DNA from: a virus
Direction: 5' to 3' (one strand)
IMG/VR virus record: IMGVR_UViG_3300049482_000175
Span: 1-22,990 of that record
Length of the DNA: 22,990 bases
Below, piece after piece: positions 4,285 through 20,808 of the stretch (positions are counted from its first letter, which is position 1; every line of letters begins with the position of its first letter). A program made the position numbers and the translations under genes. Below the pieces are notes generated by a model. That model saw only the letters and a program-made list of their open reading frames with translations, did no database searches and was not told the DNA's origin.

Positions 4285-4535
4285 GCGTTCTGCCAAAGTA
4301 CGATTTCAACGCGCCGGACGGATCCACGCACCTCGATCTTACCGCTGGCGAAATCCACCGCCAGTTCGTGCCGTTCCGTTCCTACCAATGGGTGCAGCGC
4401 GGCTTGCAGGCCGGCGCCCGCAGCGTCATCGAGCTGGTCAACGCCGCCGAACTGCGCCTGGCCAACGGGGTTAAAGCGGCACGGGCCGGCAGCCTCAATT
4501 CGCCGGTGCGCAAGCAGAGCATCAAACCCGAATGA
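4281..4535 (+). CDS. Hypothetical protein upstream of large terminase (84 aa)
   Basis: The 84-residue ORF begins at an ATGA overlap with the previous gene and ends at another with the terminase gene (4532-4535). Its product is soluble and basic towards the C-terminus; visible segments are FNAPDGSTHLDLTAGEIHRQ and a predicted helix ARSVIELVNAAELRLANGV. Direct translational coupling to the terminase suggests a packaging or head-assembly accessory role, but this rests on position only. No domain is recognised. Confidence 0.6.
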   Translation: MSVLPKYDFNAPDGSTHLDLTAGEIHRQFVPFRSYQWVQRGLQAGARSVIELVNAAELRLANGVKAARAGSLNSPVRKQSIKPE

Positions 4536-7500: not shown

Positions 7501-7552
7501 ACCCGCCCGGCAGCCTATCCGGCCACGCGGCTTCAAAGCCACCAGCTGGTGA
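4532..7552 (+). CDS. Terminase large subunit (GpA-type) containing an intein
   Basis: The ATPase-nuclease motor that cuts and packages phage DNA. The 1006-residue precursor contains an intein at residues 80-435; removing it leaves about 650 residues, normal for the Terminase_GpA family. The P-loop is split: PIQLGK (74-79) lies before the intein and T436-EVAVN after it, so splicing is needed to rebuild GKT. Walker B is LIVDELDEF with D530-E531. A zinc-finger-like C592-x2-C595 and C619-x2-C622 follows. The nuclease domain starts near AGVDTQDNR (D744). The C-terminus is Pro/Ala-rich and overlaps the next gene. The start is the ATG of an ATGA overlap with the preceding gene. The extein is GC-rich (about 63% in one sampled line) while the intein is lower (about 53%). 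Confidence 0.95.
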   Translation: MINAHAAICEAIAKALAPRKPQTVSQWSDANRVLSSKGSAEPGRWRTSRNPILRKPMDCMSARSRAKVVVLVFPIQLGKALDVQTPIATPDGWTRMGDIKQGDVVFGSAGQRVSVIAASEVFHGHDCYRVTFSDGSEIIADAGHRWSVIDLQQCNEARKEIKRRESSCGSVRTRSEVSAEPYANTKVLETHVLASTYRTRGKQSRYGVMVAGALQLPAQKLPMDPYLLGLWLGDGNSAQAAITTMDKEIVDAFAEYDPSPRKHQSSGLATSYGLRGGFLTGLREAGVLNNKHIPKQYLRASSEQRLALLQGLMDSDGYAAVDGIAEFTSSIPVLAMQVIELLCSLGFRPRYVWRKTSRKDSCRITFPAHRNSRVFRLQRHLAKCLEKPSVRCAAMVTMRHITGVEKIPSIPVRCIAVDSPDHLYLAGEAMIPTHNTEVAVNTLGYCMDQHPGPIMVCLPGEVSMNKWVAQKLNPMLEETPAAQRALSSTASRDSANQRTFKEFAGGQLYLEHAGSPSRLKSTTVRTLIVDELDEFAANLSSGDDPVAMLNGRTSAFPATYKRLYISTPQIRGLSRIERLYLSSTEARFHIECPECLHKQPLEWSGLHWNPEVTQVWYACRECGVCIEEHHKARLILDADNRERAGERGIGWVSAHPEKDIEGFQTNCLYYPIGLGPRWLELAQMWKDAQNDPSSLKTFINDRLAEAWEDPAMRQVKHNIVADRALPYRLRSAPHGVLAITAGVDTQDNRLAVHITGWGRGMAAWTLDYVELPGDPADDAVWTALTDLLNRPIEHANGALMRVEAVAIDCGGHRTEAVKAYVRARKVKRCMGIFGAVPNNAPVLNKGKLQDVNWRGQLDKRGVMIYHVGTVAIKHMLYGRLSTDADKAEEARLVNFSDDLPPEYFTGLISETYNPVKNRFEKRTGVRNEPLDTWGYSYAAAHHPELRLHRRTKADWDAAEARLHKLATTAASPTKDPDENAQAPEAEQPAKPARQPIRPRGFKATSW
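4769..5836 (+). mobile_element. Class 3 intein with LAGLIDADG homing endonuclease, in the terminase P-loop
   Basis: A 356-residue in-frame protein-splicing element at residues 80-435 of the terminase precursor. It starts ALDVQTPIATPDGW; the first residue is Ala, not the Cys or Ser nucleophile of class 1. The class 3 Trp-Cys-Thr signature is complete: W146 in GHRW of block B (two after His144), C414 in block F (VRCIAVDS), and T433 directly before the terminal H434-N435, with T436 as the first C-extein residue. The C-terminus is therefore PTHN|T. Two endonuclease motifs are intact: LLGLWLGDG (D234) and LQGLMDSDG (D316), so the element may still be mobile. Splicing by an obligate block F cysteine is established for this class (Bethlehem DnaB intein); activity here is inferred. 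Confidence 0.9.
7451..7455 (+). promoter_or_regulatory. Ribosome-binding site deciding the Mor-like start
   Basis: AAGGA, five bases before the ATG at 7461, within the terminase coding sequence. It is the reason for choosing 7461 over the upstream in-frame ATG at 7398. Confidence 0.55.
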
Positions 7553-7922
7553 GCCGCGCCCGAGTGCCTTCGCGCTGAACCGCACGCCGGAGCAGGTACA
7601 GCAGCTGGCGCCACCGGCAAGCCACCCCGACGACATCATCGGCGACGTGCTGGCCCGTATCGCCGAGCGCGTGCAGATCGCCGCGGTGGTGCTGATCGAG
7701 GTGGAGATGGAAGTGCGCCGCGACTGGGCCGGCGACCGGCCCTACATCGCCGCCACCGGCGAGCAGATGCGCGCCCAGATCAGCGCCCGCAATGGCCGGG
7801 TGTATTCCGAATGGCGCAAAGGCGAGCGCATTCCGCTGCTGGCGCGCCGCTATGGGGTCAGCGAGCGCCGCATCCGGCAGATCATCGACAGCCAGCAGGC
7901 ACTGCATCGGGCCGGAAAGTGA
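7461..7922 (+). CDS. Mor-like transcription activator / HTH protein
   Basis: The 153-residue product probably binds DNA. Its C-terminal half (about 85-150) matches the pattern of Mu Mor/C-family activators: EQMRAQISARNGRVYSEWRKG followed by the HTH core LLARRYGVSERRIRQIIDSQ. The N-terminus is a Pro-rich disordered tail (KTPKPLKPNNPPNPPG). The start at 7461 is chosen because AAGGA sits five bases upstream (7451-7455); an in-frame ATG at 7398 gives a longer Pro-rich version without such a site. The gene overlaps the terminase by 92 nt and its TGA (7920-7922) lies within the first copy of the 28-bp repeat. Being next to that repeat makes it a candidate late-gene activator; this is inference. Confidence 0.65.
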   Translation: MKTPKPLKPNNPPNPPGSLSGHAASKPPAGEPRPSAFALNRTPEQVQQLAPPASHPDDIIGDVLARIAERVQIAAVVLIEVEMEVRRDWAGDRPYIAATGEQMRAQISARNGRVYSEWRKGERIPLLARRYGVSERRIRQIIDSQQALHRAGK

Positions 7923-7943
7923 AGCCTTCGCCTGAACATTTCC
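7916..7943 (+). repeat. 28-bp direct repeat, copy 1
   Basis: First of three identical 28-bp copies (begins AAAGTGAAGCCTTCGCCTGA, ends ACATTTCC). It overlaps the stop codon of the Mor-like gene and ends 24 bases before the connector gene at 7968. It contains a small dyad GAAG-C-CTTC. No sigma70 -10 at fixed spacing downstream. Candidate activator site or module-boundary element. Confidence 0.85.
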
Positions 7944-7967
7944 GCCGGTATCGCCCAGCATCCTGAT

Positions 7968-8510
7968 ATGACCGACATACCCTCCGAAATTCCCGCCGAG
8001 CTTCGCGCCGGCGATACGCACAAATGGACGCGCAGCCATCCGTCCTATCCGGCCAGCGCCGGGTGGGTTATGGCGTATGTGCTGGTCGGCCCCGCCGGGG
8101 TGTTCAATTTCGCGGCCACTGCCGATGGCGATGATTTCGCCATCACCGTGGCGGCCAGTGTTTCGGCCACCTGGGCGGCCGGGGTGTATACCCTCACCGA
8201 GAGCGTTACCCTGGCCGGCGAGCGCTACAGCACCGCCACCAAATCGGTGCGCGTGCTGGCCAATCTGGCCGGGGCTGTGGCTGCCAGCGACACCCGCTCG
8301 CACGCCCGCCGCATGCTCGATGCCATCGAAGCCTGGCTGGAATTGAAAGCGCCCACCTCGGAAAGCGTGGAGATCGCCGGCCGCAAGATCAGCAACTACC
8401 CGCTGGTCGATCTGCTGGCCCTGCGCGATAAATACCGCTTCGAAGTCAGCCTGGAGTCCGGCGTGAAGCCCGGCGGCTTCGGTCGCAAAGTCTTAGTGAG
8501 GTTTGGATAA
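7968..8510 (+). CDS. Head-joining / connector protein, gpW-like C-terminus
   Basis: A 180-residue structural protein placed directly before the portal gene, where lambda has W. Residues about 1-100 are beta-rich (segments AGDTHKWTRSHPSYPASAGW, FAATADGD, AAGVYTLTESVT), probably an Ig-like or jelly-roll domain. The C-terminal part has helix ARRMLDAIEAWLELKA, a strand-like VEIAGRKISNYP, then LVDLLALRDKYRFEV, the pattern of gpW-like connector proteins that bind the portal. The TAA overlaps the portal ATG as TAATG at 8508-8512. It follows the first 28-bp repeat by 24 bases. The connector assignment comes from position and the C-terminal pattern; the N-terminal domain role is unknown. Confidence 0.6.
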   Translation: MTDIPSEIPAELRAGDTHKWTRSHPSYPASAGWVMAYVLVGPAGVFNFAATADGDDFAITVAASVSATWAAGVYTLTESVTLAGERYSTATKSVRVLANLAGAVAASDTRSHARRMLDAIEAWLELKAPTSESVEIAGRKISNYPLVDLLALRDKYRFEVSLESGVKPGGFGRKVLVRFG

Positions 8511-10354
8511 TGTCCGATATGTATGCGTGGCTCGGCGCGGGCAACCGCACCGCCCGGCGCGGCTTTGACGCCGCCAAGGTCGACCGCCTCACCGGCCGCT
8601 GGGCAACCACCGGCACCGCCATCGACGAAGAACTGCGCGGCCAGCTCGATCCGCTGCGGGCACGTTCCCGCGATCTGTTCAAGAATAACGAATACGCCGC
8701 CAAATTCGGGCGCAGCGTGCGCAACAACGTGGTCGGCACCGAGGGCTTCACTTTGCAGGCCCGCGTCATGGACCAACCCAAGAAGCCCGATGCGCTGGCC
8801 AACGCCGCCATCGAGTCGGCCTGGTGGCGCTGGATGCGTCCCGGCAACTGCGACATCACCGGCAAATACTCCTTTAACGACCTGATGCGCGTGCTGGCCA
8901 TCAGCCTGGCCCGCGACGGCGAGATCCTGCTGCGCCGGTTTCGCGGCAACGGCTTCGGCGAATTCGGCTACCAGCTGCAGATCCTCGACATGCAGCGCCT
9001 GGATACCACCGCCAACCGCGCCCGCACCGCCAACGCCAACGCCATCGTGATGGGCGTAGAGATCGACGCCTACCAGCGACCGGTCGCCTACCACTTCCGC
9101 AACCGCATCGCCGGCATGAACGAGATCGAGCGCATTCCTGCTGCCGAGATCATCCACCGCTTCATCGCCCAGGAACCCGAGCAGACCCGTGGCATTCCCT
9201 GGATGCACGCCGCCATGCTGCGGCTTAACGATCTGAACGGCTACCGTGAGGCGGCGGTCATCGCCGCCCGCATCGGCGCCAGCCAGATGGGCATGTATGT
9301 GTCGCCGAACGGCGAGCCGCCAAATTCCGACGATACCGACGCCGATGGCAACTTCATCACCGAAGTGGCGCCTGGCGAGTTCAGCGTGGCGCCGCCCGGC
9401 TACGACTTCAAAACATTCGACCCCAAATACCCGCACGAACAGTTCGATGCCTTCAACAAGGCCACCTTGCGCGGCATCGCCAGCGCCATCGGCGTTTCGT
9501 ATAACGATCTGGCCTCCGATCTGGAAGGCGTCAGCTTCAGCTCCATCCGCACCGGCACCCTGGCCGAGCGCGAAGAGTGGATGGTGATCCAGAACTGGCT
9601 GATCGGCGTGCTGCTCACCCCGCTGTTCGAAGAATGGCTGGAAATCGCGCTCATGGGCGGCAAGATCACCCTGCCGAACGGCACCCCGTTGCCAGCCGCC
9701 AAGCTGGCCATGCTGCGCGAACACGTTTGGCAACCGCGCCGCTGGTCCTGGGTGGATCCGAAGAAAGACATGGAAACCGCCGTGCTCGGCATGCAGAACC
9801 TGCTCACCTCGCCGCAGAAAATCGCCGCTTCGCAGGGTGTCGACATCGAGGACATCCTCGACGACATTTCCGCCTTCGAACAGATGGTGGCCGCCAAAGG
9901 CTTAACGCTGCCGGCCCCGCCGAACGCGCCCGCCGCACCGGCTCCGGAACCCAGCGAGGAAGACAAGGCCCTGCGCCTGCAAACCGCCGCCGCGCTCAGC
10001 CGTTCGCTCGATGTCATCAACGCGCAGCGCGAGCAGGGCGTGCATGTGCACCTGAACCAGGAACCCGCGCAGATCAGCATCCCGGCCCCGGTGGTCAATA
10101 TCACCAATCAGCGCGAAAGCAATCCCGCGCCGGTGGTCAATGTCACCGTTGAGCCAACGCCAGTCACGGTTCACGTGGAACCCACGCCGGTGAATGTGAA
10201 CGTGGAGCCTGCGCAGGTCACCGTGGAGCTGGAAGCCAATCTGCCCGAGCAGAACATCACCCTGGAAATGCCGGCCCGCAGAACCGAAACCGTGATTGAA
10301 CGTGATGGCCTGGGCCGCATCAAGAGCACCACGCAGCTCGAATCGGATATCTAA
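8510..10354 (+). CDS. Portal protein, lambda gpB family, with extended C-terminus
   Basis: The ring at the head vertex through which DNA enters and exits. The 614-residue product shows the lambda portal pattern: LDPLRARSRDLFKNNEYAAK and RNNVVGTEGF near the N-terminus, LARDGEILLRRF and IERIPAAEIIHRF in the core, ATLRGIASAIGVSYNDLASDLEGVSFSS and TGTLAEREEWMVIQ later. After a Pro/Ala linker (about 475-490) the C-terminus carries short valine-rich repeats (PAPVVNITNQ, TPVTVHVEP, TPVNVNVEP, AQVTVELE), then a conserved-looking tail with VIERDGLGRIKSTTQ. The start has GAGG upstream and overlaps the preceding stop. The identification is firm; the repeats may decorate the vertex. Confidence 0.92.
   Translation: MSDMYAWLGAGNRTARRGFDAAKVDRLTGRWATTGTAIDEELRGQLDPLRARSRDLFKNNEYAAKFGRSVRNNVVGTEGFTLQARVMDQPKKPDALANAAIESAWWRWMRPGNCDITGKYSFNDLMRVLAISLARDGEILLRRFRGNGFGEFGYQLQILDMQRLDTTANRARTANANAIVMGVEIDAYQRPVAYHFRNRIAGMNEIERIPAAEIIHRFIAQEPEQTRGIPWMHAAMLRLNDLNGYREAAVIAARIGASQMGMYVSPNGEPPNSDDTDADGNFITEVAPGEFSVAPPGYDFKTFDPKYPHEQFDAFNKATLRGIASAIGVSYNDLASDLEGVSFSSIRTGTLAEREEWMVIQNWLIGVLLTPLFEEWLEIALMGGKITLPNGTPLPAAKLAMLREHVWQPRRWSWVDPKKDMETAVLGMQNLLTSPQKIAASQGVDIEDILDDISAFEQMVAAKGLTLPAPPNAPAAPAPEPSEEDKALRLQTAAALSRSLDVINAQREQGVHVHLNQEPAQISIPAPVVNITNQRESNPAPVVNVTVEPTPVTVHVEPTPVNVNVEPAQVTVELEANLPEQNITLEMPARRTETVIERDGLGRIKSTTQLESDI
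10081..10234 (+). repeat. Valine-rich short tandem repeats in portal C-terminus
   Basis: Coding repeats, about nine to ten residues each, of the form P-x-P-V-x-V-x-V-E (for example TPVTVHVEP then TPVNVNVEP). The DNA copies are diverged rather than identical, so they are old or under protein-level selection. The pattern suggests a small beta-solenoid or extended strand array attached to the portal. Confidence 0.6.
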
Positions 10355-12946
10355 ATGACGGCCTACGTACTCGCCGCCAATGCCACCCTGCGCGATATCG
10401 GCAATGCCGGCATCTGGGGCGTGGCCACGGCCCGCACCGGTGGCGACACCATCGACACCAACGGCTTCAACGTCACCATCGACCAAGACACCCGCTATGG
10501 CTTGTCGGGCGCAGTGGCCAACAGCCTCGGCTCGATCACCATCAACGCCACCAAGGGCGGCCAGCTCAAGATCGACGCCACTAAAGTCTGGCTGGTGCCA
10601 TACACCACCGGCTCCGGCACGCTTACTGCTGGCACGGCGATCACGCTAACCGGCGTCACCTGCAACACCATAGGCCTGTATTCCGCCTTCACCGCCGCGC
10701 CCGTGCTCACCGGCGTGGCAACCGGCTGGCTGAAAGTCACCAATGCCAGCGGAACACCGCCAAGCTCCGGCACGTTCACGCAAGCGGGCTTCACCTTCAC
10801 CATTTCCGGCGCGCCGCTGAAAGGCTTCATTGAAGTGGTCGGCGATGAGGCAGCCACCATCAATGCCAACCGCCTCGGCTCGGTGAACATGACCGGCGAC
10901 TGGTTCGAAGTCGGCACCACCTCCGGTTCCTCGGCCACCACCTACCAGCTGCCCACCAACGGCTCGGTGCAGTATTATCCGGCGATCTGGGTTGAAACCG
11001 GCACCGGCACCGATGTCTATGAGGCGTATCCGTGCGCCGGTTCGCTGGTCGCTGCGGCATCCACACCGACCGACGCCATTCGCGGCAAGGTCTGCTGGGC
11101 CACCACCGGTGGCGTGCTGCGCTTCGGCTCGGATGGCACCAACACGGTCGGCTATGTGCCGCCATCAGGCCGCCGCATCCGCTTGCCGAATATCTTGCTG
11201 GTGAACTGCACCACCGCCGCCCGCGCCACCAATGCGCTGCCGAATGCCACGCTGGCCACCCGCTACGATTTCACCTGCACCGGTGGCGGCGTGATCAATA
11301 TGGATAAGGTTAACTGCCTGTGGTATCCGTCCTTCGCCCAGGCATATTCCACTACCCTGAGCTATGTCGGCATCGCCGAGCAGCTCAGCGTTTCCGAGAT
11401 CGCGCAGCCCTTGGTCTGGAACAATGTCGCCGTTGGGCAGGTGGCGGCGCAGGCGAATATTGCGCTGGTCATGTCGCTGTGCTTCGCCGGCGGCACCATC
11501 AGTAACTGCGCATGGAGCCGCGCCACGCAAGCCACCGCGTTGGCTGTGCGCACGCTCACCGATATTTCAGGCTTCACGTTCAGTGCAAATCGATGGTTTT
11601 CACTGGTGCTGCGCGCCGCCACCAATACCATGATGGCTACCGACACCCGCGTGGCCAATTCCACCTTCACCAATGAAGTCAACATGGGCATGGTGAATCT
11701 GGTCACCTGCACCAATATCACATACACCAATACGATTTATTACGACTGCATCACCACCACCACGGCAACCAATCCGCTGAGTGCGTTCCAGCCGTCCTCG
11801 AACTGCAACACCATCACCATCGACGGCCTGAGCTTCGGCGGCTTGACCAACGTACACCCCTACAATGCGCTGCTCACCGTCGGCGCGGCGGGCTGCACCA
11901 ACATCAAGCTGCGCAATATCGGCAGCTATGCCTCGCCCTTGAACCTCGGCTCGGCCAACGCCTGTGGGCTGATCTACACCCTGGCAGCCGGCGCTGCCGC
12001 GTCTGATGTGAAAGTGCAGCGCGTGTATTGCTCCAATACCCGCACAGGCATCATGACCGGCGATAACTCCAGCACCCGCGTGCTGAATGAATCGATATTC
12101 GGCGATTATGCCGATGCGGCCGATGTTTCTGCTGTGCTGAATTTCACCCAGAAAGGGCTTGGCACCACCAAAGCACTCACTGCCCAGACTGCCATTTACG
12201 GCACACACTGGTTGGATTATTACACCAGCACCACAGCCGGCCGGCTGGCCATTCTGATGAATGAAACGACAGGACTAACGGCGGCGCAGGTTGCGCTCAC
12301 CAATGGTGCCGCGTTCACCTCGGCCGGCGGCTTGTATATGCCCACAGTAGGCATGACGGCGACCTTTGAAACGCCTGAATATATCATCGGACACACCGGA
12401 TTCAGCGCCACGGCCGGCACCATGGCCGGCGGCACGGTAGGCAACTACCGGTTCGAGTTCGCTATCGACAAAAACGATGGCGCGGGCTTCTCGGCGATGA
12501 GCGCGGCCTCATACACAGCGGCCACGCTGGCCACGGCGATGAATGCGCTGACCGGTATCAGTGCGATTAACGGCTTCAAACTGCGCCTGAAAATCAGCAC
12601 CACCACCGCCAACACCACGGCCATCACCTCGTTCTACATGCTGACCACCAGCACAACCACAACGCAGGCGTACCAGTATCCGCTCGATACCATCACCCTG
12701 AGCCTCACCGGCCTGGTGACCGGATCCGATGCTGTGGTTCGCGCCGCCGGCGCATCGACAATTCTTGCGTCAGTGGATGCAAATGCCGGAAGCTCTTGGG
12801 CCTATACATACGAAACCCCGCAAGCGGTAGATATTGATGTCATTAAACCCGGCTATGTATTAGTACCGCTTGTCAGAAACTTCACACTTCCCTCTTCAAA
12901 CGCATCGCTACCGGTTAGTCAACTGGTCGACAGAAACTACGCATAG
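10355..12946 (+). CDS. Large beta-helix-like virion protein (863 aa)
   Basis: A Thr/Ala/Asn-rich protein without obvious catalytic motifs. Its composition, many short beta strands and repeated N-T/T-N turns (CTNITYTNTIYYD, CNTITIDGLSFGG, CTNIKLRNIGSYA) suggest a right-handed beta-helix, as in phage fibres, spikes or head decorations. The C-terminus ends in IKPGYVLVPLVRN ... VDRNYA, resembling the end of the following gene (IRPGYGKF ... QDRSYV), so the two probably share a terminal module. It starts at an ATG just after the portal TAA. Its place between portal and capsid is not the usual fibre position. A structural role is inferred; exact function, including receptor binding, is open. Confidence 0.6.
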   Translation: MTAYVLAANATLRDIGNAGIWGVATARTGGDTIDTNGFNVTIDQDTRYGLSGAVANSLGSITINATKGGQLKIDATKVWLVPYTTGSGTLTAGTAITLTGVTCNTIGLYSAFTAAPVLTGVATGWLKVTNASGTPPSSGTFTQAGFTFTISGAPLKGFIEVVGDEAATINANRLGSVNMTGDWFEVGTTSGSSATTYQLPTNGSVQYYPAIWVETGTGTDVYEAYPCAGSLVAAASTPTDAIRGKVCWATTGGVLRFGSDGTNTVGYVPPSGRRIRLPNILLVNCTTAARATNALPNATLATRYDFTCTGGGVINMDKVNCLWYPSFAQAYSTTLSYVGIAEQLSVSEIAQPLVWNNVAVGQVAAQANIALVMSLCFAGGTISNCAWSRATQATALAVRTLTDISGFTFSANRWFSLVLRAATNTMMATDTRVANSTFTNEVNMGMVNLVTCTNITYTNTIYYDCITTTTATNPLSAFQPSSNCNTITIDGLSFGGLTNVHPYNALLTVGAAGCTNIKLRNIGSYASPLNLGSANACGLIYTLAAGAAASDVKVQRVYCSNTRTGIMTGDNSSTRVLNESIFGDYADAADVSAVLNFTQKGLGTTKALTAQTAIYGTHWLDYYTSTTAGRLAILMNETTGLTAAQVALTNGAAFTSAGGLYMPTVGMTATFETPEYIIGHTGFSATAGTMAGGTVGNYRFEFAIDKNDGAGFSAMSAASYTAATLATAMNALTGISAINGFKLRLKISTTTANTTAITSFYMLTTSTTTTQAYQYPLDTITLSLTGLVTGSDAVVRAAGASTILASVDANAGSSWAYTYETPQAVDIDVIKPGYVLVPLVRNFTLPSSNASLPVSQLVDRNYA

Positions 12947-12954
12947 GACTGAAC

Positions 12955-14310
12955 ATGGCCAAAATTACCACACGCGCACAGCTCAACGTCGGCACCGAGC
13001 TCACCATCGATGAAACGGCGCGCACATTCACCTTGAATGTGGCGGGCAATCTGGTGGCTAAAGACGGCGTAACCATCCAGGCTCTGTACTCCAAATTCTC
13101 CGACCTTTGGGCAACGTCAACCTATCAGGATTCGCCGTTCCCGATGAATGCGCTCGACGCACTTTCCGGCCAGTATTATTTCGGCGTGGATGCCGGCAAT
13201 AACTACAGCGGCTGGAAGCCTGCCGATGATGCCACGCGGCAGATGCTGCGCGATGGCGGCTGGCGCGAATACTCCAGCGCCGGTGTGCTGAACCGTGAAT
13301 ACACCGGCGTTGTCGGCTTGGGCACGGTGTCCTCCGGCGCGCAGCTTTACTTCCAGCGCGCCAGCACCGACGCGCCGACCAACTTCACGTTCACCGATCA
13401 GTGCAACGAAGGCATTCAAGTGTTCGGCGACGCCAGCAACGGCAACTTCGACAAGCGCACGTTCTTCACCGGATTCTGCCGGGAGTACGGCAAGAAATAC
13501 AAGACCGGCACCATGGCGGAAACCGGCAAGTCGGCCACCGGTCCGTTTATCGTCAACCTGCTGCTTTCCAATGAAGCTGACTTAAAAATTCAGGCCAACG
13601 ATGCGGCCATGTCTGGCGCGCCGTATTCCGGCATCACGGTCAGCTATTACAGCGCAAACCAGAGCCGCACCATCGGCGGTGTCAGCCGTAACTTCAAGAC
13701 CATCATCGACGGCAACGGTGCCACCCTGGAGCAGATCTACACCAAGATTCAATATCTGCTGCGCCAGAACAGCAACATCAACACCGCCGGCACTGCCGGC
13801 AGCGTCACCGGCAAAACCGCCGCCGCCCTGTTGACGTTTTCCGGTGATACGCTGATCACCTCGCAATCGGTGTATATCGACAACATTCTGTCGGCCGACT
13901 CCAACCGGATTGAGTTTTACGATGACAGCAACACGCTGCGCACGAATCCATATACCGCCGCCGGCAACCTTACCTTCAACTCGGTGCTGGCCGGCGCGGG
14001 TTCAAGCTATCGCCTGATGTTCGCCGCACCGCCGGGCGCCGGCAACGACTACGGCGAAGCGGGCGCCATCACGGTAAACGACGCTTCCGGCACGCCGATC
14101 ACCGGCACCATTTCCGCCAGCCCGGTGGCGTTCACGTACGACTACGACGGCAACGTGCAGGGCGGCGCAACTGCCGGCACAGACCGCGCCGTGGTGCTGA
14201 TCGGAATCCGGCCAGGATACGGCAAGTTTTCCGTAGCCACCGGCACGCTGACCCGCAGCAAAGCCCTGTCGCTCTCGCTGGTAGGTGAGCAAGACCGGTC
14301 ATACGTCTAA
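12955..14310 (+). CDS. Beta-rich virion structural protein (451 aa)
   Basis: The product is beta-rich and soluble. It starts MAKITTRAQLNVGTELTID with an AGGA ribosome site upstream, and shows an aromatic-rich segment FSDLWATSTYQDSPFPM, Gly/Asn turns and a regular beta C-terminal domain (TVNDASGTPITGTIS, FTYDYDGNVQGG). The last 35 residues (IRPGYGKF to EQDRSYV) resemble those of the previous gene. It ends in a TAATG overlap with the next gene. No enzymatic motif is seen. It probably forms an appendage complex with its neighbours; the family name is not recognised. Confidence 0.6.
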   Translation: MAKITTRAQLNVGTELTIDETARTFTLNVAGNLVAKDGVTIQALYSKFSDLWATSTYQDSPFPMNALDALSGQYYFGVDAGNNYSGWKPADDATRQMLRDGGWREYSSAGVLNREYTGVVGLGTVSSGAQLYFQRASTDAPTNFTFTDQCNEGIQVFGDASNGNFDKRTFFTGFCREYGKKYKTGTMAETGKSATGPFIVNLLLSNEADLKIQANDAAMSGAPYSGITVSYYSANQSRTIGGVSRNFKTIIDGNGATLEQIYTKIQYLLRQNSNINTAGTAGSVTGKTAAALLTFSGDTLITSQSVYIDNILSADSNRIEFYDDSNTLRTNPYTAAGNLTFNSVLAGAGSSYRLMFAAPPGAGNDYGEAGAITVNDASGTPITGTISASPVAFTYDYDGNVQGGATAGTDRAVVLIGIRPGYGKFSVATGTLTRSKALSLSLVGEQDRSYV

Positions 14311-14813
14311 TGGCGATTACGTTCGACCCCGCCAATAACCGCATCGTGCTCGACAGTGCGAGCGTTTCGGCGGCTGAAATATACAGCCGGTGGGTCGATT
14401 GGGTGGTGCTCTCGGACAATGCAAAATACCTGCCGGCCTTCAAGCAGGTGGGTGGCGACGACCTGGGCGGCGGCCTGAGCATTCCGCCGTATCTGTTCCT
14501 TCTGAACGGCTGGCGCGTGCGCCCGATGGAGGCCAATCACTCGCTCACCATCACCGGCAACCTGTTCGTGGAAGGCGGCGGTGTGCCGGTGGTGAACACC
14601 CTCGGCGCGTATAACGTATCGGCGCAGTACACCGTGCCGGTGCAGGCGCAGGGTATTTCCACCAGCGGATCCACCGGACCCACCGCCGCCGAAATCGCCG
14701 CTGCCATTCTGCTGGCCGCACAAAGCACCCCAATCTGGGCCGACCTGCGCAAGGTCAACGCACTCACCGTCGACGGTGCAGGCACCGAAGCGGATCCCTG
14801 GGGTCCGGTCTGA
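14310..14813 (+). CDS. Small virion-associated protein (167 aa)
   Basis: Coupled to the previous gene (TAATG) and to the next (TGATG). The N-terminal part has a pattern seen in phage structural proteins: ITFDPANNRIVLDS, then EIYSRWVDWVVLSDNAKYLPAF, then GGDDLGGG, YLFLLNGWRVRP and LTITGNLFVEGGG. The C-terminal half is Pro/Ala-rich and helical (TAAEIAAAILLAAQSTPIWADL). It may be a chaperone or base part for the large beta-rich proteins encoded just upstream. This is inferred from order and coupling only. Confidence 0.6.
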   Translation: MAITFDPANNRIVLDSASVSAAEIYSRWVDWVVLSDNAKYLPAFKQVGGDDLGGGLSIPPYLFLLNGWRVRPMEANHSLTITGNLFVEGGGVPVVNTLGAYNVSAQYTVPVQAQGISTSGSTGPTAAEIAAAILLAAQSTPIWADLRKVNALTVDGAGTEADPWGPV

Positions 14814-15013
14814 TGGCTTCGGCCTGGGGCAAAGCCTGGGGCGCTGCGTTCGCCAATGCCTGGGGCGCGCTGCAGCTGGTCGCGCCATCCACCACGGCGG
14901 GCGGGGCATCCAAAAAACCGCGCCTGCGGCCGTTCCGCCCCATGCAGGTTCCAGCGCTCGCCTGGGACAGCGACGAAGACGAAGCCGCCCTGCTGGTGAT
15001 CGGCGCGCTGTAG
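14813..15013 (+). CDS. Small AWG-repeat protein (66 aa)
   Basis: The start overlaps the previous TGA as TGATG. The N-terminus holds a recurring Ala-Trp-Gly motif (SAWGKAWGAAFANAWGAL), a signature seen in small phage and mobile-element proteins of unknown role, often near structural genes. The middle is Lys/Arg/Pro-rich and the C-terminus acidic (SDEDEAALLVIGAL). No TM segment. The 28-bp repeat starts five bases after its stop. The gene call is supported by coupling; the function is unknown. Confidence 0.6.
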   Translation: MASAWGKAWGAAFANAWGALQLVAPSTTAGGASKKPRLRPFRPMQVPALAWDSDEDEAALLVIGAL

Positions 15014-15017
15014 CCAC

Positions 15018-15045
15018 AAAGTGAAGCCTTCGCCTGAACATTTCC
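15018..15045 (+). repeat. 28-bp direct repeat, copy 2
   Basis: Identical to the copies at 7916 and 20724. It lies in the 79-base gap between the AWG-repeat gene and the protease/capsid gene and ends 47 bases before the ATG at 15093. Sequence beyond the 28 bases differs from the other copies. Confidence 0.85.
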
Positions 15046-15092
15046 ACCCACGCTAGGCACACTCAAGTCAAATACTCACCCCGAGATTTGAC

Positions 15093-16943
15093 ATGCTTCC
15101 AAAAGACCTGGCCGCCGGCACTAAAGCCGAGCGTCTGTTCAAAATCGAAAAACGCGAGGCCATCAACCTCGAAGCCCGCACCGTCGAACTGGCGTTCAGC
15201 TCCGAGGAGCCATATGAGCGTTGGTGGGGTGTAGAAATTCTCGACCACAGCAAGAAGTCCGTCGACATGTCCCGCATGACCGACGGCGCACCGCTTCTGG
15301 TCGGCCACCGTTCCGATGATCAAGTCGGCGTCATTGAATCAGCACGCATCGATGCCGACCGGGTAGGTCGGGCCATCGTACGCTTCGGAAAAAGTGCGCG
15401 TGCCGAAGAGATATTCCAGGACGTGATCGACGGAATCCGCACCAAGGTCAGCGTCGGCTATCGCATCACCGAAGCCGTGCTGGAAAGCCAGAAAGACGGC
15501 GTAGACACCTATCGCGTCATGAAGTGGGAGCCGTACGAGTGTTCACTCGTCGCCGTTCCCGCCGATGCCTCGGTGGGCGTAGGCCGTTCCGAAGACGTTC
15601 CGGCCCCGGCCGCTGAACCGAAACCCAAAACCCCTTCTATCCAAATCAAAGGATCCAAAATGGAAGAAAACGAAATCCGCGCCCAGGAAGCCCTGCGCGC
15701 ACTCGGTGCTGACGCGGAACACAAGCGTGCCAGCGAAATCCTCAACACCGCCCAAGCCTACGCCAAGTACGAACTCGGCGATCTGGCCCGCGAAGCCATC
15801 ACCAGCAAAATGTCGGTTGAAGACTTCAAGCAGCGCGCCATGGAAAAAATGGCTGCTGCTCCGAAGCCGACTGCCGACATCGGCTTGACCGGCGGCGAAG
15901 TGAAGCGCTACTCGATGCTGCGTGCGCTGAACTTCCTGGCCAACCCGCAAGACATCCGCGCCCGCGAAGAAGCCAAGTTCGAGATTGAATGCTCGCACGC
16001 CGCCGCTGAACGTGCCGGCAAAGCCGCGCAAGGCCTGATGGTTCCGAATGAAATCCTGAAGCGCGACCTGAACGTGACCACCTCAACCGCGGGTGGCCAC
16101 ACCGTTGCCACCGAGCTGCTGTCTGGCGATTTCATCACCCTGCTGCGCAATGCCATGGTCATCAACCGCATGGGCATCCGCGTTTTGGATGGCCTGCAAG
16201 GCAATATCGCCATCCCGCGCCAAACCGCAGGCGGCACCGGCTACTGGGTTGCTGAATCCGGCACCCCGACCGAATCGCAACAAGCGTTTGATCAGGTCAC
16301 CATGTCGCCGAAAACCGTGGGCGGCATCACCGACATCAGCCGCAAGCTGCTGAAACAATCCAGCCTGAGCGTTGAGCAGTTCGTGCAGCAGGATCTGGCG
16401 CAGGTTCTGGGCTTGGCCATCCAAGCGGCAGCCATCACCGGTGGCGGCTCGAATGAACCAACCGGCCTGTTGGCATCGGCCATCGGCTCGGTAGCCGGCG
16501 GCACCAACGGCTTGGCGCCTGCCTGGTCGCACATCGTCGATCTGGAGTCCGCTGTGTCGGTCGCCAACGCCGACGTGGGCACCCTGGGCTACCTCACCAA
16601 CGCCAAAGTGCGCGGCAAGCTCAAGCAAGTGGCAAAGAACGGCGCGGCCTCGCCCTTCATCTGGGACGCAGGCAACACCCCGCTGAACGGCTATCAAGCC
16701 GCTGTCAGCAACGCCGTGCCAAGCAACCTCACCAAAGGTTCTTCATCGGGCATCTGCTCGGCGATCATCTTCGGTGACTGGTCCAGCCTGGTCATGGGCA
16801 TGTGGGGCGGCCTCGACCTGATGGTCGACCCGTACACCCAAGGTGCCAGCGGCACCGTCCGCATCGTGGCCCTGCAGGATGTCGATCTGGCGATCCGCCA
16901 CCTCGAGTCCTTCGCCGCCATGAAAGACGCGCTCACCGCGTAA
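15093..16943 (+). CDS. Fused prohead protease, scaffold and HK97-type major capsid protein
   Basis: One 616-residue chain combines maturation protease, scaffold and coat. Residues 1-165 match the HK97 prohead protease family (U35): likely catalytic His72 in LLVGHRS and Ser120 in TKVSVGYRI, with the usual PYECSLVAVPAD segment after it. A Pro-rich linker (170-188) leads to a helical charged scaffold/delta region (190-310). Residues about 315-616 are the coat: PNEILKRDLNVTT, ATELLSGDFITLLRN, IPRQTAGGTGYWV, GGITDISRKLLKQSS, and a C-terminal IIFGDWSSLVMGMWGGLDLMVDPY. Protease self-release would give mature coat. An internal start at residue 190 could also make a scaffold-coat chain. A strong terminator follows. 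Confidence 0.93.
   Translation: MLPKDLAAGTKAERLFKIEKREAINLEARTVELAFSSEEPYERWWGVEILDHSKKSVDMSRMTDGAPLLVGHRSDDQVGVIESARIDADRVGRAIVRFGKSARAEEIFQDVIDGIRTKVSVGYRITEAVLESQKDGVDTYRVMKWEPYECSLVAVPADASVGVGRSEDVPAPAAEPKPKTPSIQIKGSKMEENEIRAQEALRALGADAEHKRASEILNTAQAYAKYELGDLAREAITSKMSVEDFKQRAMEKMAAAPKPTADIGLTGGEVKRYSMLRALNFLANPQDIRAREEAKFEIECSHAAAERAGKAAQGLMVPNEILKRDLNVTTSTAGGHTVATELLSGDFITLLRNAMVINRMGIRVLDGLQGNIAIPRQTAGGTGYWVAESGTPTESQQAFDQVTMSPKTVGGITDISRKLLKQSSLSVEQFVQQDLAQVLGLAIQAAAITGGGSNEPTGLLASAIGSVAGGTNGLAPAWSHIVDLESAVSVANADVGTLGYLTNAKVRGKLKQVAKNGAASPFIWDAGNTPLNGYQAAVSNAVPSNLTKGSSSGICSAIIFGDWSSLVMGMWGGLDLMVDPYTQGASGTVRIVALQDVDLAIRHLESFAAMKDALTA
15648..15653 (+). promoter_or_regulatory. Internal ribosome-binding site before capsid part
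   Basis: AAAGGA six bases before the in-frame ATG at 15660 (residue 190 of the fusion), placed right at the protease-scaffold boundary. It would allow separate synthesis of a 427-residue scaffold-coat protein, much as lambda C contains the Nu3 start. Use in vivo is inferred. Confidence 0.5.
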
Positions 16944-16950
16944 GCCAAGG

Positions 16951-16978
16951 AAACCCGCCGCTCCGGCGGCGGGTTTTT
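16951..16978 (+). terminator. Rho-independent terminator after capsid gene
   Basis: AAACCCGCCG (16951-16960) pairs with CGGCGGGTTT (16967-16976) around a six-base loop, followed by a T run to 16978. It starts seven bases after the capsid stop and separates coat expression from the lysis cassette beginning four bases later. Confidence 0.9.
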
Positions 16979-16981
16979 GCC

Positions 16982-17302
16982 ATGAACGAAACCCACGAAC
17001 GCCGCAGCAGGGACTCTATGCGAAACACGATGGAACGCCACATCCAAACGGCCATTCAGCTGATCATCCTGGCGGTGATCATGTGGATCGGCAACACCGT
17101 GGTGGCTCTGCGCGACAGCAGTGCCGTCCTCACCACCCAAATCACCGAGCTGAAATCGCAGGTAACCGACATCAATCTGCGTTTCAACGGCTACATGCCC
17201 CGCGCCGAAACCGAAGCGAAGTTCGATCTGGAATCCTCCAAGCATTCCGAAATCAACCGCCGCCTCGATTCCGTTGAGCGCGAAATAGGCACCGCACAAT
17301 GA
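16982..17302 (+). CDS. Small membrane protein with coiled coil, holin-region (106 aa)
   Basis: One predicted membrane helix (about residues 20-42, TAIQLIILAVIMWIGNTVVAL) follows a basic N-terminus, and a heptad-like helix covers about 45-105 (LTTQITELKSQVTDINLRF ... EINRRLDSVEREI). Such proteins are common in lysis cassettes as holin partners or antiholins. ATG at 16982 sits just after the terminator; in-frame Met codons at residues 13 and 17 are alternative starts. A longer reading back into the capsid gene is not credible. It overlaps the next gene by ATGA. The lysis role comes from context. Confidence 0.65.
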   Translation: MNETHERRSRDSMRNTMERHIQTAIQLIILAVIMWIGNTVVALRDSSAVLTTQITELKSQVTDINLRFNGYMPRAETEAKFDLESSKHSEINRRLDSVEREIGTAQ

Positions 17303-17727
17303 AATTGCCCGCGCCTGCCGCGTCTGCGCTGGCCTGGCTGAATGCCGCCGCCCGGCGCTACACGCCCAAGGCCATAACCTTCACCCGGCGCTGGAGCGTG
17401 TTCTTCATCCTGCTGCCCAGCCAGGTGTTCCTGGCGATTGCCGGCAGCGCGCTGTTCGCGCACCTCGATCCGCGCATCGCGGTCGACAACCCCTTCGCGT
17501 TTCTGGCCGAGCTGCCCGCCCTGGCCAGCTACGCCTCCTGCGCCATCGCCTTTGCGGTGTTCTTCAAGATGCTGCTCTGGCACGACTTGCCGCGTGAAGC
17601 CGAAGCCGTATTGCAGAAACAAGCCGCCGAAGGCAACGCCGGCGCCCGTTGGATCCTCATCAAGGACCGCCTCGAATGGACCGTTTTACTGATCGTATTC
17701 ATCGCATTTTTCTGGCCGTCGCGTTAA
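17299..17727 (+). CDS. Probable holin (three TM segments)
   Basis: The 142-residue product has three hydrophobic stretches: WSVFFILLPSQVFLAIAGSA (about 32-53), a second at ASYASCAIAFAVFFKMLLW (about 76-94) and a third at WTVLLIVFIAFFW at the C-terminus. A charged amphipathic helix lies between the second and third. Three helices with a basic N-terminus and position before the endolysin fit a class I holin, which permits endolysin action or membrane depolarisation. It is coupled to the upstream gene by ATGA and its end overlaps the endolysin start by 52 nt. No sequence family is recognised with certainty. Confidence 0.65.
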   Translation: MKLPAPAASALAWLNAAARRYTPKAITFTRRWSVFFILLPSQVFLAIAGSALFAHLDPRIAVDNPFAFLAELPALASYASCAIAFAVFFKMLLWHDLPREAEAVLQKQAAEGNAGARWILIKDRLEWTVLLIVFIAFFWPSR

Positions 17728-18458
17728 GCGCGATTGCCTTCACGTCTTCAGCGGTGCAGGCTGCCTCTCCCGGCCAAGCTGCTGAAGCGCCAGAGCGCAT
17801 GGTGGAAGTGGCGGGGGTTCCCCTGTTCCCGCTGCTTCCGCCCCGCGCCGGCGTTACCCCGCGCATCGCCGACCTCGCCACGCAGATCATCGTGCGCTGG
17901 GAAGTCGGTTCCGAAGCCCGCTACACCCGGCTGTATCGCGGTGTGCTGTGGCCCGGCGGCGCATCCGGCCCCACCTGGGGCATAGGTTACGATGGCGGCC
18001 ACCAATCGGCGGCCAGCATCGAACGCGACTGGTCTGCTCACCCCTCAAGGCAGGCCCTGTCGCTTACTTCGGGATTCACTGGCCAACGCGCCGGTGCCAA
18101 TATATCCCGCTGGCGTGGCATCACCACGCCATTTTCTTATGCCATCCAGGTGTTCAGCGACCGCTCGCTGCCGGCCTATGCCCAGCAGGCGCACCGAACC
18201 CTGGGCCGCGATCTGGCTGGCATGCCGGAGCCGGCGCAAGCGTCGCTGATTTCCCTTGGCTATAACCGTGGCTGGCGCATGACCGGTCACCGCAACCGCG
18301 AAAAGCGCGTGATCCGCGATGTCTGTCTGCCGCGGCGCGATACCGCCTGCATCGCCGAGCAGCTGCGCTCGATGTGCCGCATCAATGCCGGCACGGCGGT
18401 GGCTAATGGCGTCTGCGCCCGCCGTAAAGACGAAGCCCGGCTGGCGGTGCGCGCATGA
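17676..18458 (+). CDS. Secreted endolysin, GH24-like muramidase (260 aa)
   Basis: The enzyme cuts peptidoglycan at the end of infection. The N-terminus is a typical signal peptide (basic MDRFTDRIHR, hydrophobic IFLAVALSAIAFTSSA, then VQA|A cleavage site), so export by the Sec system is expected rather than holin-only release. The catalytic part has WEVGSEARY with a likely Glu, then LWPGGASGPTWGIGYDGG, the conserved WPGG/SG-T-GIGYD pattern of this endolysin group, then SLGYNRGWRMTGHRNREKRVI and a Cys-rich C-terminus (four Cys, possible disulfides). The start at 17676 is chosen for AAGGA nine bases upstream; an ATG at 17649 adds a short polar extension. It sits with holin and spanins. Confidence 0.82.
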   Translation: MDRFTDRIHRIFLAVALSAIAFTSSAVQAASPGQAAEAPERMVEVAGVPLFPLLPPRAGVTPRIADLATQIIVRWEVGSEARYTRLYRGVLWPGGASGPTWGIGYDGGHQSAASIERDWSAHPSRQALSLTSGFTGQRAGANISRWRGITTPFSYAIQVFSDRSLPAYAQQAHRTLGRDLAGMPEPAQASLISLGYNRGWRMTGHRNREKRVIRDVCLPRRDTACIAEQLRSMCRINAGTAVANGVCARRKDEARLAVRA

Positions 18459-18862
18459 AGCTCGATCTGAAAGCCATCGATCTGGGCGATGCCGCCACCG
18501 CGCTGAAATGGTTGGTGGGCGTTGGCCTACTGATCGGCATTCTGGCCATCGGCTGGAATCTGGGCGCCAACAGCAAGGCCGAAGACCTCGCCAAGATGGA
18601 GCGCGATGTGGCCGTGCAGAAAATGGCGCTGCAGATCATCGCCGTGCGCCTGCGTGAAGTGAACGCCGCCGCTGCCGCCGCCGTGAAGGCCGAGAAAAAA
18701 GCCAAGGCCGCCGCCGCCGATGCCGGCAAAGTAGCCGCCCGCGCTGAGCGGCATGCGGAAGACCTGCAAAACGATTTCGACAAACGCCTGCGTACGGCGC
18801 GCAAGAATCCCAGCTGCGAGGCTCTGCTCAATTCGGATGTGAGAAAGGTATGCGGATTATGA
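18455..18862 (+). CDS. Inner-membrane spanin (Rz-like)
   Basis: The protein bridges inner and outer membranes for the last step of lysis. It has one TM helix (residues about 18-36, LKWLVGVGLLIGILAIGWNLG), then a long Ala/Lys-rich coiled coil (about 40-105) and a periplasmic C-terminus with two Cys (NPSCEALLNSDVRKVCGL), as in many Rz proteins. The start overlaps the endolysin stop as ATGA. The outer spanin gene begins in its last codons, as in lambda Rz/Rz1. Identification is by topology and position. Confidence 0.75.
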   Translation: MKLDLKAIDLGDAATALKWLVGVGLLIGILAIGWNLGANSKAEDLAKMERDVAVQKMALQIIAVRLREVNAAAAAAVKAEKKAKAAAADAGKVAARAERHAEDLQNDFDKRLRTARKNPSCEALLNSDVRKVCGL

Positions 18863-19176
18863 ATGCGCTGCGCCATTTCTGCTATTTCGCCATCGGCTTT
18901 CTGGTGGCGGTGCTCGCGGGCTTGCTTACCGGCTGCGCCAGCACGCCCATCGTGCCCGAAACCGTCACCGTGGTGGTGGAAAAAATGATTCCTGTGCCGG
19001 AGTGGGCCACCAAGCCAATCGTGAAGCCGCTGCCGTCCGATGGCACCGTGGGCGCCACGCTGGTGTCGGACTACGCCAAAGGCACGGTGATCGATCTGAT
19101 GAACTGCCACCGCGCCCTGCTGCGCAAGCTCGGCGCCGGCTTGCCCGCAGATCCGAAAGAGTGCGGCGGTGATTAA
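18859..19176 (+). CDS. Outer-membrane lipoprotein spanin (Rz1-like)
   Basis: The 105-residue product has a signal with lipobox LLTGC-AS, Cys26 being the expected lipidation site. The mature part has a proline-containing stretch (PIVPETVTVVVEKMIPVPEW ...) and short helices. Together with the inner spanin it forms the trans-envelope complex. Start 18859 gives an ATGA overlap with the Rz stop and places AAGG ten bases upstream; ATG at 18850 would add three residues but with almost no spacing. The reading continues past the inner spanin stop, so it is an overlapping, not embedded, spanin pair. Confidence is good for lipoprotein, fair for spanin. Confidence 0.72.
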   Translation: MNALRHFCYFAIGFLVAVLAGLLTGCASTPIVPETVTVVVEKMIPVPEWATKPIVKPLPSDGTVGATLVSDYAKGTVIDLMNCHRALLRKLGAGLPADPKECGGD

Positions 19177-19960
19177 TCTTAAATTCGATGTTGATCCTGG
19201 AAAAGTGTTCGAAAGAGCGCTGACTGAGCTTGAGCAAAGCCAGGTGCCTTTCGCAACGTCCAAAGCCATCAACGAGACCGCTTATCAGATTCGACAGCAG
19301 TGGGCGGGTATTGCTCCAAAGGTATTTAAAAGCCCTGTGCGCCTGACAGTTAAGGCTGCAATGTACAAGAAGGGCACAAAGTCGAAGCCCGCCGCTGAAA
19401 TATTTATCCGTGATGAGGCTTTCAAGGGTAATAGCCCGGCTCAATATTTAAGGGCGCAGGTACTGGGTGGTCAGCGCCGACGAAAAGGATATGAAAACGC
19501 ACTTGAAAGAATCGGTGCCTTGCCGCAGGGGCAATACACAGTGCCAGGTAAATACGCAGATATTGATTCTAACGGAAATATACGCTCCGGCCAGTTGGTA
19601 AGTATCCTTTCGCAACTGAAAGCGCTCCACGATTCATATCAGCATGAAACGGTAGATTCACGTGAGAAGCGCCAAAAGAAAGAGCGCCGAGCTGGCGGCG
19701 TAACGACCGACTATATGGCGCTTAATACAGCCGGAAGCCGTAAAGGCGGAATCTATAAGGTGATGAATTTTAATTTTGGGGGGAAGGTTAAGAAGGCGAT
19801 CCGCCCCGTCCTTATCTTCGTAAGCCGAGCATTTTATCGAAAACGCTATGACATTTTCGAAATGGCGCAGACGGTAGCATCGCGCCGGATGCCTGAAATA
19901 TTCAAGAACGAGCTTGAGAAGGCAGTTAAATCCACATTCAACAAGAAGTTCGGACTATGA
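19169..19960 (+). CDS. Minor tail / neck protein, gpZ-like
   Basis: The 263-residue product matches the general pattern of lambda Z-type minor tail proteins: an N-terminal helix with KAINETAYQIRQQW, then KSPVRLTVKAAM, SPAQYLRAQVLGGQRRRKGYE, a middle LPQGQYTVPGKYADIDSNGNI and a basic, Lys/Arg-rich C-terminus with FYRKRYDIFEMAQTV. It starts with GTG at 19169 and overlaps the spanin gene by eight bases. Composition is clearly more A/T-rich than its neighbours (about 38% GC in one sampled line against about 57% in the next gene), suggesting exchange from another phage. It precedes FII- and U-like genes, consistent with a tail-completion job. Confidence 0.6.
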   Translation: MINLKFDVDPGKVFERALTELEQSQVPFATSKAINETAYQIRQQWAGIAPKVFKSPVRLTVKAAMYKKGTKSKPAAEIFIRDEAFKGNSPAQYLRAQVLGGQRRRKGYENALERIGALPQGQYTVPGKYADIDSNGNIRSGQLVSILSQLKALHDSYQHETVDSREKRQKKERRAGGVTTDYMALNTAGSRKGGIYKVMNFNFGGKVKKAIRPVLIFVSRAFYRKRYDIFEMAQTVASRRMPEIFKNELEKAVKSTFNKKFGL

Positions 19961-20283
19961 GCCAAGAAAGCACCCTGCAGGAATTCGACGCACTGATCGC
20001 CAGCTCGATGATTTCATCCGGCATGGGCGATATCGGCAGCTATACGCCCTATGGCGGTGGCACATCCATCGATGGCATCAGCTGCCTGGTGGATAAGGTA
20101 TACGCCGAGTTCGGCTCCGATGCCGGCGCGGTCGGCGGCACCAAGACCGTAATCACCTTCTACCTGAGCGAAGTGCCGGTGCCCACGCGCCTGAGCAGCA
20201 TACAAATCGGCTCGCGCACCTGGAAGCTGCAGGAACTCGACGCCCAGGATGAATCGATGACGCGCTGGGTGGTGGTGCAATGA
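19957..20283 (+). CDS. Head-tail joining protein, FII-like
   Basis: A 108-residue protein of the size of lambda FII, which attaches the finished tail to the head. After a helical N-terminus (STLQEFDALIASSMISSG), the rest is beta-rich: a DGISCLVDKVYAEFG segment, VGGTKTVITFYLSEVP, then LSSIQIGSRTWKLQELDAQDESM. This alternation of strands resembles the FII/phage-attachment fold. Coupled to both neighbours by ATGA overlaps. The assignment combines size, pattern and order; another head-completion protein is the alternative. Confidence 0.6.
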   Translation: MSQESTLQEFDALIASSMISSGMGDIGSYTPYGGGTSIDGISCLVDKVYAEFGSDAGAVGGTKTVITFYLSEVPVPTRLSSIQIGSRTWKLQELDAQDESMTRWVVVQ

Positions 20284-20723
20284 GTACGCCGAAGACTTGG
20301 GATCTGCTCAGCGCCTGCCAGACCTGCCTGCAGCGCATCAGCGTGGCCAACGGCTTCTACACCAACGCCGGCGCCACGGCCAGCTTGGAGCCGGGGCAGG
20401 TATCGCCCGATGCCGATCTGGCTCTGGCTGTGGTGATCGACTCGCTCGCCGCTGCCGAAAGCGATGCCGGAAAAATCAATCAGGCCTTTTACCAGGCCGG
20501 CATTCTGGTGTTCGCCAAAGTGGGCGTGCAGCAGGCCGATGCGCAGATCCGTCTGCATGAGCTGATCGCCGATGTGCGCAAGGCCTTCATGTATCAGCAG
20601 GGCAGCTTTCCGTCCGGCATCCAGTTCCCGCGCTTCATCAGTGCCGCGCCCATTCCGCCAGCCGACGGCATGCTCTGGGTTGGCTGGGAAATCCGCTTCA
20701 CGGCGCAGGTTCCGGTCGGCTAG
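20280..20723 (+). CDS. Tail terminator / completion protein, gpU-like
   Basis: A 147-residue product encoded directly after the FII-like gene and before the tail tube, where lambda has U. It shows an alpha/beta pattern: an N-terminal helix (WDLLSACQTCLQRIS), a strand with VIDSLAAAE, a strand YQAGILVFAKVGV and helix ADAQIRLHELIADVRKAFM, ending in strands with MLWVGWEIRFTAQV. This is the pattern of tail terminators that cap the tube. ATGA overlap at the start. Its TAG lies immediately before the third 28-bp repeat, so it ends a transcriptional or modular unit. Confidence 0.6.
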   Translation: MSTPKTWDLLSACQTCLQRISVANGFYTNAGATASLEPGQVSPDADLALAVVIDSLAAAESDAGKINQAFYQAGILVFAKVGVQQADAQIRLHELIADVRKAFMYQQGSFPSGIQFPRFISAAPIPPADGMLWVGWEIRFTAQVPVG

Positions 20724-20751
20724 AAAGTGAAGCCTTCGCCTGAACATTTCC
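20724..20751 (+). repeat. 28-bp direct repeat, copy 3
   Basis: Identical to the copies at 7916 and 15018, starting at the base after the TAG of the gpU-like gene and ending 57 bases before the tail tube ATG at 20809. It occupies the only gap in the tail cluster; the rest of the gap holds a TAAGGAG ribosome site for the tail tube. Confidence 0.85.
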
Positions 20752-20808
20752 GGCTACAACGGCCAACCTGAGCACTAACTACACACCTCACGCGTAAGGA
20801 GCTTCACA

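Follow-up and report, generated by a model that had tools for sequence, protein, structure and literature searches.

A perfect 28-bp repeat, AAAGTGAAGCCTTCGCCTGAACATTTCC, that occurs three times in a viral genome fragment very probably forms the activator-binding and -35 part of sigma70-type late promoters that depend on a Mor-like protein. The fragment (IMG/VR record IMGVR_UViG_3300049482_000175; all 22,990 nucleotides analysed are referred to here as the window) carries exactly three copies, all on the plus strand and without a mismatch, and contains no near matches; the remainder of the genome may carry further copies, for example ahead of lysis or fibre genes. Among 100 dinucleotide shuffles of the window, none produced a match with up to three mismatches (Table 1). 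A preliminary description of this DNA had placed each copy at or just after a stop codon and ahead of a structural unit, which we confirmed. The first copy includes the stop codon of the Mor-like gene (TGA 7920–7922) and precedes the head–tail joining and portal genes, the second follows TAG 15011–15013 after 4 nucleotides and precedes a protease–capsid fusion gene, and the third follows TAG 20721–20723 with no intervening nucleotide and precedes the gene for the major tail (tube) protein. Among the roles suggested earlier, there is strong support for that of a phage-specific late promoter or activator site tied to the Mor-like protein: the element is linked to mor, a -10-like motif follows it, and the repeat arms track the recognition helix of the activator. 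It is the fixed spacing of the -10-like motif and the ATG, together with this tracking, that favours an operator within a promoter over a site acting in RNA or in recombination.

Table 1. Late-gene features of the window, with predicted promoter parts
Feature	Position	Strand	Basis or remark
Mor/C-family transcription activator gene	7398..7922	+	Pfam Mor 1.4e-9, phrog_532 4.9e-10
Mor domain of activator gene	about 7668-7913	+	start codon of gene uncertain
Repeat copy 1, predicted activator operator	7916..7943	+	family alignment
-35-region centre TTCGCCTGA of copy 1	7927-7935	+	family alignment
Right arm CATTTCC of copy 1	7937-7943	+	left arm imperfect
Predicted -10 of promoter 1, CAGCAT	7956..7961	+	fixed-offset A-N3-T; predicted transcription start 7968
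Head-tail joining gene, first of portal unit	7968..8510	+	phrog_5774; ATG 7 nt after -7 T
Portal protein, lambda family	8510..10354	+	PF05136 1.9e-92
Repeat copy 2, predicted operator before protease-capsid gene	15018..15045	+	position also occupied in relatives
Predicted -10 of promoter 2, CACACT	15058..15063	+	predicted start about 15070
Protease-major capsid fusion gene	15093..16943	+	PF04586 and PF05065
Repeat copy 3, predicted operator before tail-tube gene	20724..20751	+	absent before L008 homolog
Predicted -10 of promoter 3, CAACCT	20764..20769	+	predicted start about 20776
Major tail (tube) protein, Ig-like domain	20809..21735	+	phrog_807 8.4e-58; Shine-Dalgarno-like AAGGAG upstream

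The conserved part had been described as exactly 28 bp long, but copies 1 and 3 are identical across 30 nucleotides and a CANNNT hexamer lies at equal distance beyond all three copies. The exact 28-mer was absent from other IMG/VR contigs, so relatives were compared by position; a blastn search of GenBank phages likewise returned none. We inspected the region just 5′ of the capsid gene in 80 viral loci with related capsid proteins. Many of them contain an element of 28–30 nucleotides with a conserved centre (consensus TTTGCCTTA; TTCGCCTGA in the window) enclosed by inverted-repeat arms, as in CGGAAATG-GTTTGCCTTACT-CATTTCCG, GCGGCCGCCG-TTTGCCTTAT-CGGCGGCCGC and GTCAACA-CTTCGCCTTAATT-TGTTGAC. 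The arms differ between phages, yet they remain complementary to each other and common within one genome, and in several relatives another copy, with identical or almost identical arms, lies farther 5′. Whether relatives were collected by capsid homologues or by activator homologues, the element occupies two fixed places: directly after a gene of the Mor/C family, before the head-joining and portal unit, and directly before the protease–capsid gene. A scored scan, whose output included false positives, was curated to give the element lists; the fractions given here apply to the curated sets, and all counts are inflated by kinship, as many copies come from related phages.

The window version of the element reads GGAAAgTG-AAGCC-TTCGCCTGA-A-CATTTCC. 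Judged by sequence, it is a divergent member of the family: its positions are the same and its centre and right arm are similar, with a left arm that matches imperfectly and is displaced, such that the arms lie about 3 nucleotides wider apart than in relatives. The GAAG-C-CTTC dyad that had drawn attention inside the repeat is the wrong one: it is around the centre TTYGCCTKA that the relatives carry their symmetric arms, and in the window itself the dyad is imperfect.

Among 19 copies, all eight arm pairs change on both sides (48 cells compared with 18.1 in shuffles), and the arm covariation score was 0.749, compared with 0.227 in shuffles and at most 0.25 in slid controls. Complementary, covarying arms around a loop-like conserved centre, in intergenic elements just 3′ of stop codons, might also describe a hairpin in the late mRNA that acts in processing, stability, anti-termination or translational control. 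We consider such a structured RNA highly unlikely. Arm cells were Watson–Crick pairs in 304 of 330 viral and 154 of 168 prophage cases, and G–U pairs accounted for only 3 of 330 and 3 of 168 (about 1–2%). The window copies folded no better than shuffles, and Rfam gave no match, which leaves the earlier option of RNA processing or anti-termination unsupported. Moreover, the arms are common as words within a genome instead of drifting copy by copy, and a hairpin would not explain the fixed downstream spacing of the -10-like motif and the ATG. The covariation of the relatives' arms and the position of the -10-like motif instead point to a dyad-symmetric site that adjoins or replaces the -35 element.

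The -10-like motif is A-N3-T, whose A and T correspond to the pair of positions that are best conserved in the -10 hexamer. Counted from the end of the centre, it was found at +22/+26 or +23/+27 in 46 of 55 viral copies, compared with a mean of 1.7 at other offsets. The same was true of 20 of 28 held-out prophage copies (mean of 1.1 at other offsets), which had been picked by centre, arms and position, with the -10 and the ATG playing no part. In a few phages with mor, no A-N3-T could be clearly made out. The three hexamers of the window lie at exactly +21 to +26. The end of the centre (TTA; TGA in the window) forms the beginning of a would-be -35 hexamer followed by a 17-bp spacer, and the whole has the layout of a sigma70 -10 at fixed spacing with a weak -35.

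The distance to the next gene is similarly constrained. Counting only open reading frames of at least 60 codons, the next ATG lies at +33 to +36 in 39 of 55 viral and 16 of 28 prophage copies, and any other 4-nucleotide window holds an ATG in no more than 7 viral or 2 prophage copies. In 29 of 45 scored copies the ATG stands 7–8 nucleotides after the T at -7, and at most of these starts a Shine–Dalgarno-like sequence is missing. As the ATG usually lies 7–8 nucleotides after A-N3-T, leaderless mRNAs are implied: the natural reading is that transcription would start at the AUG or one base before it, and in many related phages portal-unit and capsid messages appear to start right at the first codon. 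Under these predicted starts, the dyad of the relatives is centred at about -36.5. Within the window, a leaderless start is predicted for copy 1 only (ATG 7968); the predicted leaders of copies 2 and 3 are about 23 and about 33 nucleotides long, the latter with AAGGAG.

The gene that ends within copy 1 encodes a protein with a Mor domain (PF08765, 38.3 bits; cut-off 24.9), which also matches phrog_532, late transcriptional activator, and has the recognition helix SERRIRQII. By sequence, it belongs to the Mor/C family; its profile reaches Protein Data Bank entry 1rr7 with an E value of 0.0092. Structural support is weak, the best match in a fold comparison being Mu C in a polymerase complex (9l0x; E 0.064, rmsd 12.7). 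No homologue was found in cultured phages by tblastn. Mor homologues lie directly 5′ of the first element in relatives collected by capsid, and where mor was absent from two of these loci (G007 and G012) the full records have it further off, directly before an element. A second set was collected with a Mor alignment, and in most of its new loci mor is again closely followed by elements that share this centre. The third set consists of held-out prophages, collected from bacterial genomes with a capsid alignment and including Variovorax and Undibacterium isolates; here a clear mor gene was accompanied by a pre-capsid element, and loci without mor generally had none.

Individual loci vary around this pattern. 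L171 has a weak mor match and no clear element. L163, from Noviherbaspirillum, has mor and element variants, although the scan called none before its capsid gene: at 7274 and 9604 it carries a variant centre, CTTCCCTAA, with identical arms AGTGACAT/ATGTCAC at both places, and at 7274 a -10-like motif and an ATG follow at the usual distance. In L075 a different repeated palindrome, CCCCGGAAATTTTTCCCCCT, is found after a weak Mor-like gene (5903) and before the capsid gene (9759), and may represent a further type of operator within this system. L170, from an Azoarcus metagenome-assembled genome (MAG), has the candidate TGCGAAATTT-CTTGCCTAG-...TTTCGCA before its capsid gene, at about 9822.

Consistent with recognition of the arms by the activator, arm similarity correlates with recognition-helix similarity across 31 activator–element systems (partial Mantel r = 0.346 with the rest of the protein allowed for; 0 of 5,000 permutations). 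TTGAC arms occur in all nine systems with S/TRQR helices and in none of the 22 with other helices, the KRVYA helix is paired with CGAGAC/TCTCG arms in two systems, and helices like SxxR[IV][RQ]Q are paired with GGAAA-like arms; these figures are inflated by shared ancestry, and the TTGAC group spans several diverged lineages. Another regulator, such as a repressor or host factor, could bind the dyad of an otherwise unchanged promoter, with mor as a mere neighbour. The unlike geometry of the Mu Mor site (see below) would fit such a regulator, as would candidate elements in two loci in which no mor was seen over the upstream DNA scanned (3 kb in L148 and 10 kb in L170). We think this unlikely, because mor co-occurs with the element in three differently collected sets and because the arms vary with the recognition helix even after the remainder of the protein is accounted for.

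The preliminary description had treated absence from equivalent positions in close relatives as evidence against its proposal. The portal and capsid copies have counterparts at these positions. The tail-tube copy does not: no element precedes the tube gene of L008, the only relative readable at this point, and such a third copy is missing from most relatives. GCCGG is found on both sides of copy 1 (7909–7950) and GGCTA on both sides of copy 3 (20717–20760), flanking repeats that look like short target duplications, and no clean repeat of this kind flanks copy 2. Given the flanking direct repeats and the absence before the L008 tube gene and in most relatives, copy 3 probably arose by duplication.

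These flanking repeats, and a third copy that appeared by duplication or transfer, would also suit a recombination boundary or a tiny mobile element whose copies spread through insertion and delimit modules open to exchange. That all three copies are to be explained in this way seems extremely improbable to us: the same two positions are occupied, always in the same orientation, across deeply diverged phages, copy 2 is not cleanly flanked, the -10 and ATG spacing is conserved outside the repeat, and a recombinase site leaves the link to mor unexplained. A promoter function is needed to account for the conservation of position, orientation and downstream spacing, and the recombination boundary proposed earlier finds no support. 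A CRISPR-like solitary repeat, an Xer/lox-type site and a REP/IS200-type hairpin were considered and dropped, as none of them fits the linkage to mor or the constant spacing of -10 and ATG beyond the repeat.

In phage Mu, the activator C turns on the late promoters lys, I, P and mom (PMC4461284). The predicted promoters of the window are similar in having a Mor/C-family activator, several late operons, host polymerase and poor -35 and -10 elements. In the Mu genome (NC_000929), the lysis genes directly follow C, and an intergenic gap lies immediately 5′ of the protease and head genes; unlike in the window, a lysis gene follows the activator, and protease and capsid are separate. By our own reading, the Mu lys dyad looks like TTAT-N11-ATAA near -46, whereas the dyad of the window family lies near -36.5, and its elements further differ from Mu lys in their asymmetric conserved centre and usually leaderless starts. 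Running the element model on the Mu stretch gave nothing convincing.

At Mu Pm, the Mor site spans 16 bp, with two repeats of 5 bp separated by a 6-bp spacer, and is centred at -43.5 (PMC4390567). As at Pm (PMC4390567; PDB 1rr7), an activator dimer on an inverted repeat would replace the -35 in the window family while the -10 is kept. The window family does not show the Mu geometry: its arms are about 7–8 bp long with about 12 bp between them and a centre at about -36.5, making the sites longer, with arms about 20 bp apart, and about 7 bp nearer the start than those of Mu. Given this arm distance and centre, we would class the predicted promoter as a variant Mor/C-activated type and not as a Mu-type site. 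With an operator geometry unlike the one measured for Mu Mor, these sites need not be bound by a Mor-type dimer. The VP882/Arya/Mica-type phages, the closest cultured relatives by capsid, share with the window the order terminase, head–tail joining, portal and protease–capsid fusion, but their portal and capsid genes overlap or abut. Six cultured relatives (VP882, Arya, Mica, Bas97, RcRhea and S-LBS1) have no mor and no convincing element, and their portal and capsid genes are mostly overlapping or adjacent.

Other features of the window lie outside the repeats. The GpA-type terminase gene at 4532–7552 contains, within its ATPase domain, an intein-like insertion (LDVQTPIATPDGW ... VRCIAVDSPDHLYLAGEAMIPTHN-T) that weakly matches LAGLIDADG_3. 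Direct and inverted repeats are densely clustered at 2067–2325, in the stretch that separates the primase/helicase gene from the small terminase gene; they include TGTTCCGCAT, also present as its complement, CGCATGTAAC... and two copies of ATGCGATACAGACGC, and could be a cos/packaging region, an origin or an operator array. Four genes (863, 451, 167 and 66 amino acids) separate portal and protease–capsid at 10355–15013, the first three without a PHROG match; in many relatives the portal–capsid gap is about 2.1 kb and free of such an insertion, and others have different insertions there.

From the repeats, the element family, arm covariation, the -10-like motif, the ATG distance, mor co-occurrence and the arm–helix correlation, all read from sequence, we infer protein binding, dimerization, activation, start sites and timing as follows. 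The Mor/C-like protein encoded 5′ of copy 1 would bind, as a dimer, both arms around the centre TTCGCCTGA, and the bound activator would enable the host's sigma70 RNA polymerase to open promoters whose -35 is poor, using the minimal -10 (CANNNT) at 13–18 nucleotides after the repeat. The three promoters would drive the portal, protease–capsid and tail-tube units, and the message from copy 1 would begin at the AUG itself.

We judge the chances to be about even that this is an undescribed promoter class, used by many proteobacterial phages and prophages, in which a Mor-family dimer straddles the -35 with arms near -47 and -27, the asymmetric centre at -35 is kept for sigma, a helix code sets the arms, and head-joining and capsid mRNAs are leaderless. 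A search of the open literature found the Mu papers and no description of this promoter family. The element is likely to be a switch for late genes in a group of phages that are mostly uncultured, and its roughly 30 natural activator–operator pairs could be used to decode DNA recognition by Mor/C helices. Should the leaderless starts prove genuine, for which prophages of Variovorax, Undibacterium and other named isolates offer a direct test, these phages would make an abundant structural protein from mRNAs that have no ribosome-binding site, which would be unusual.
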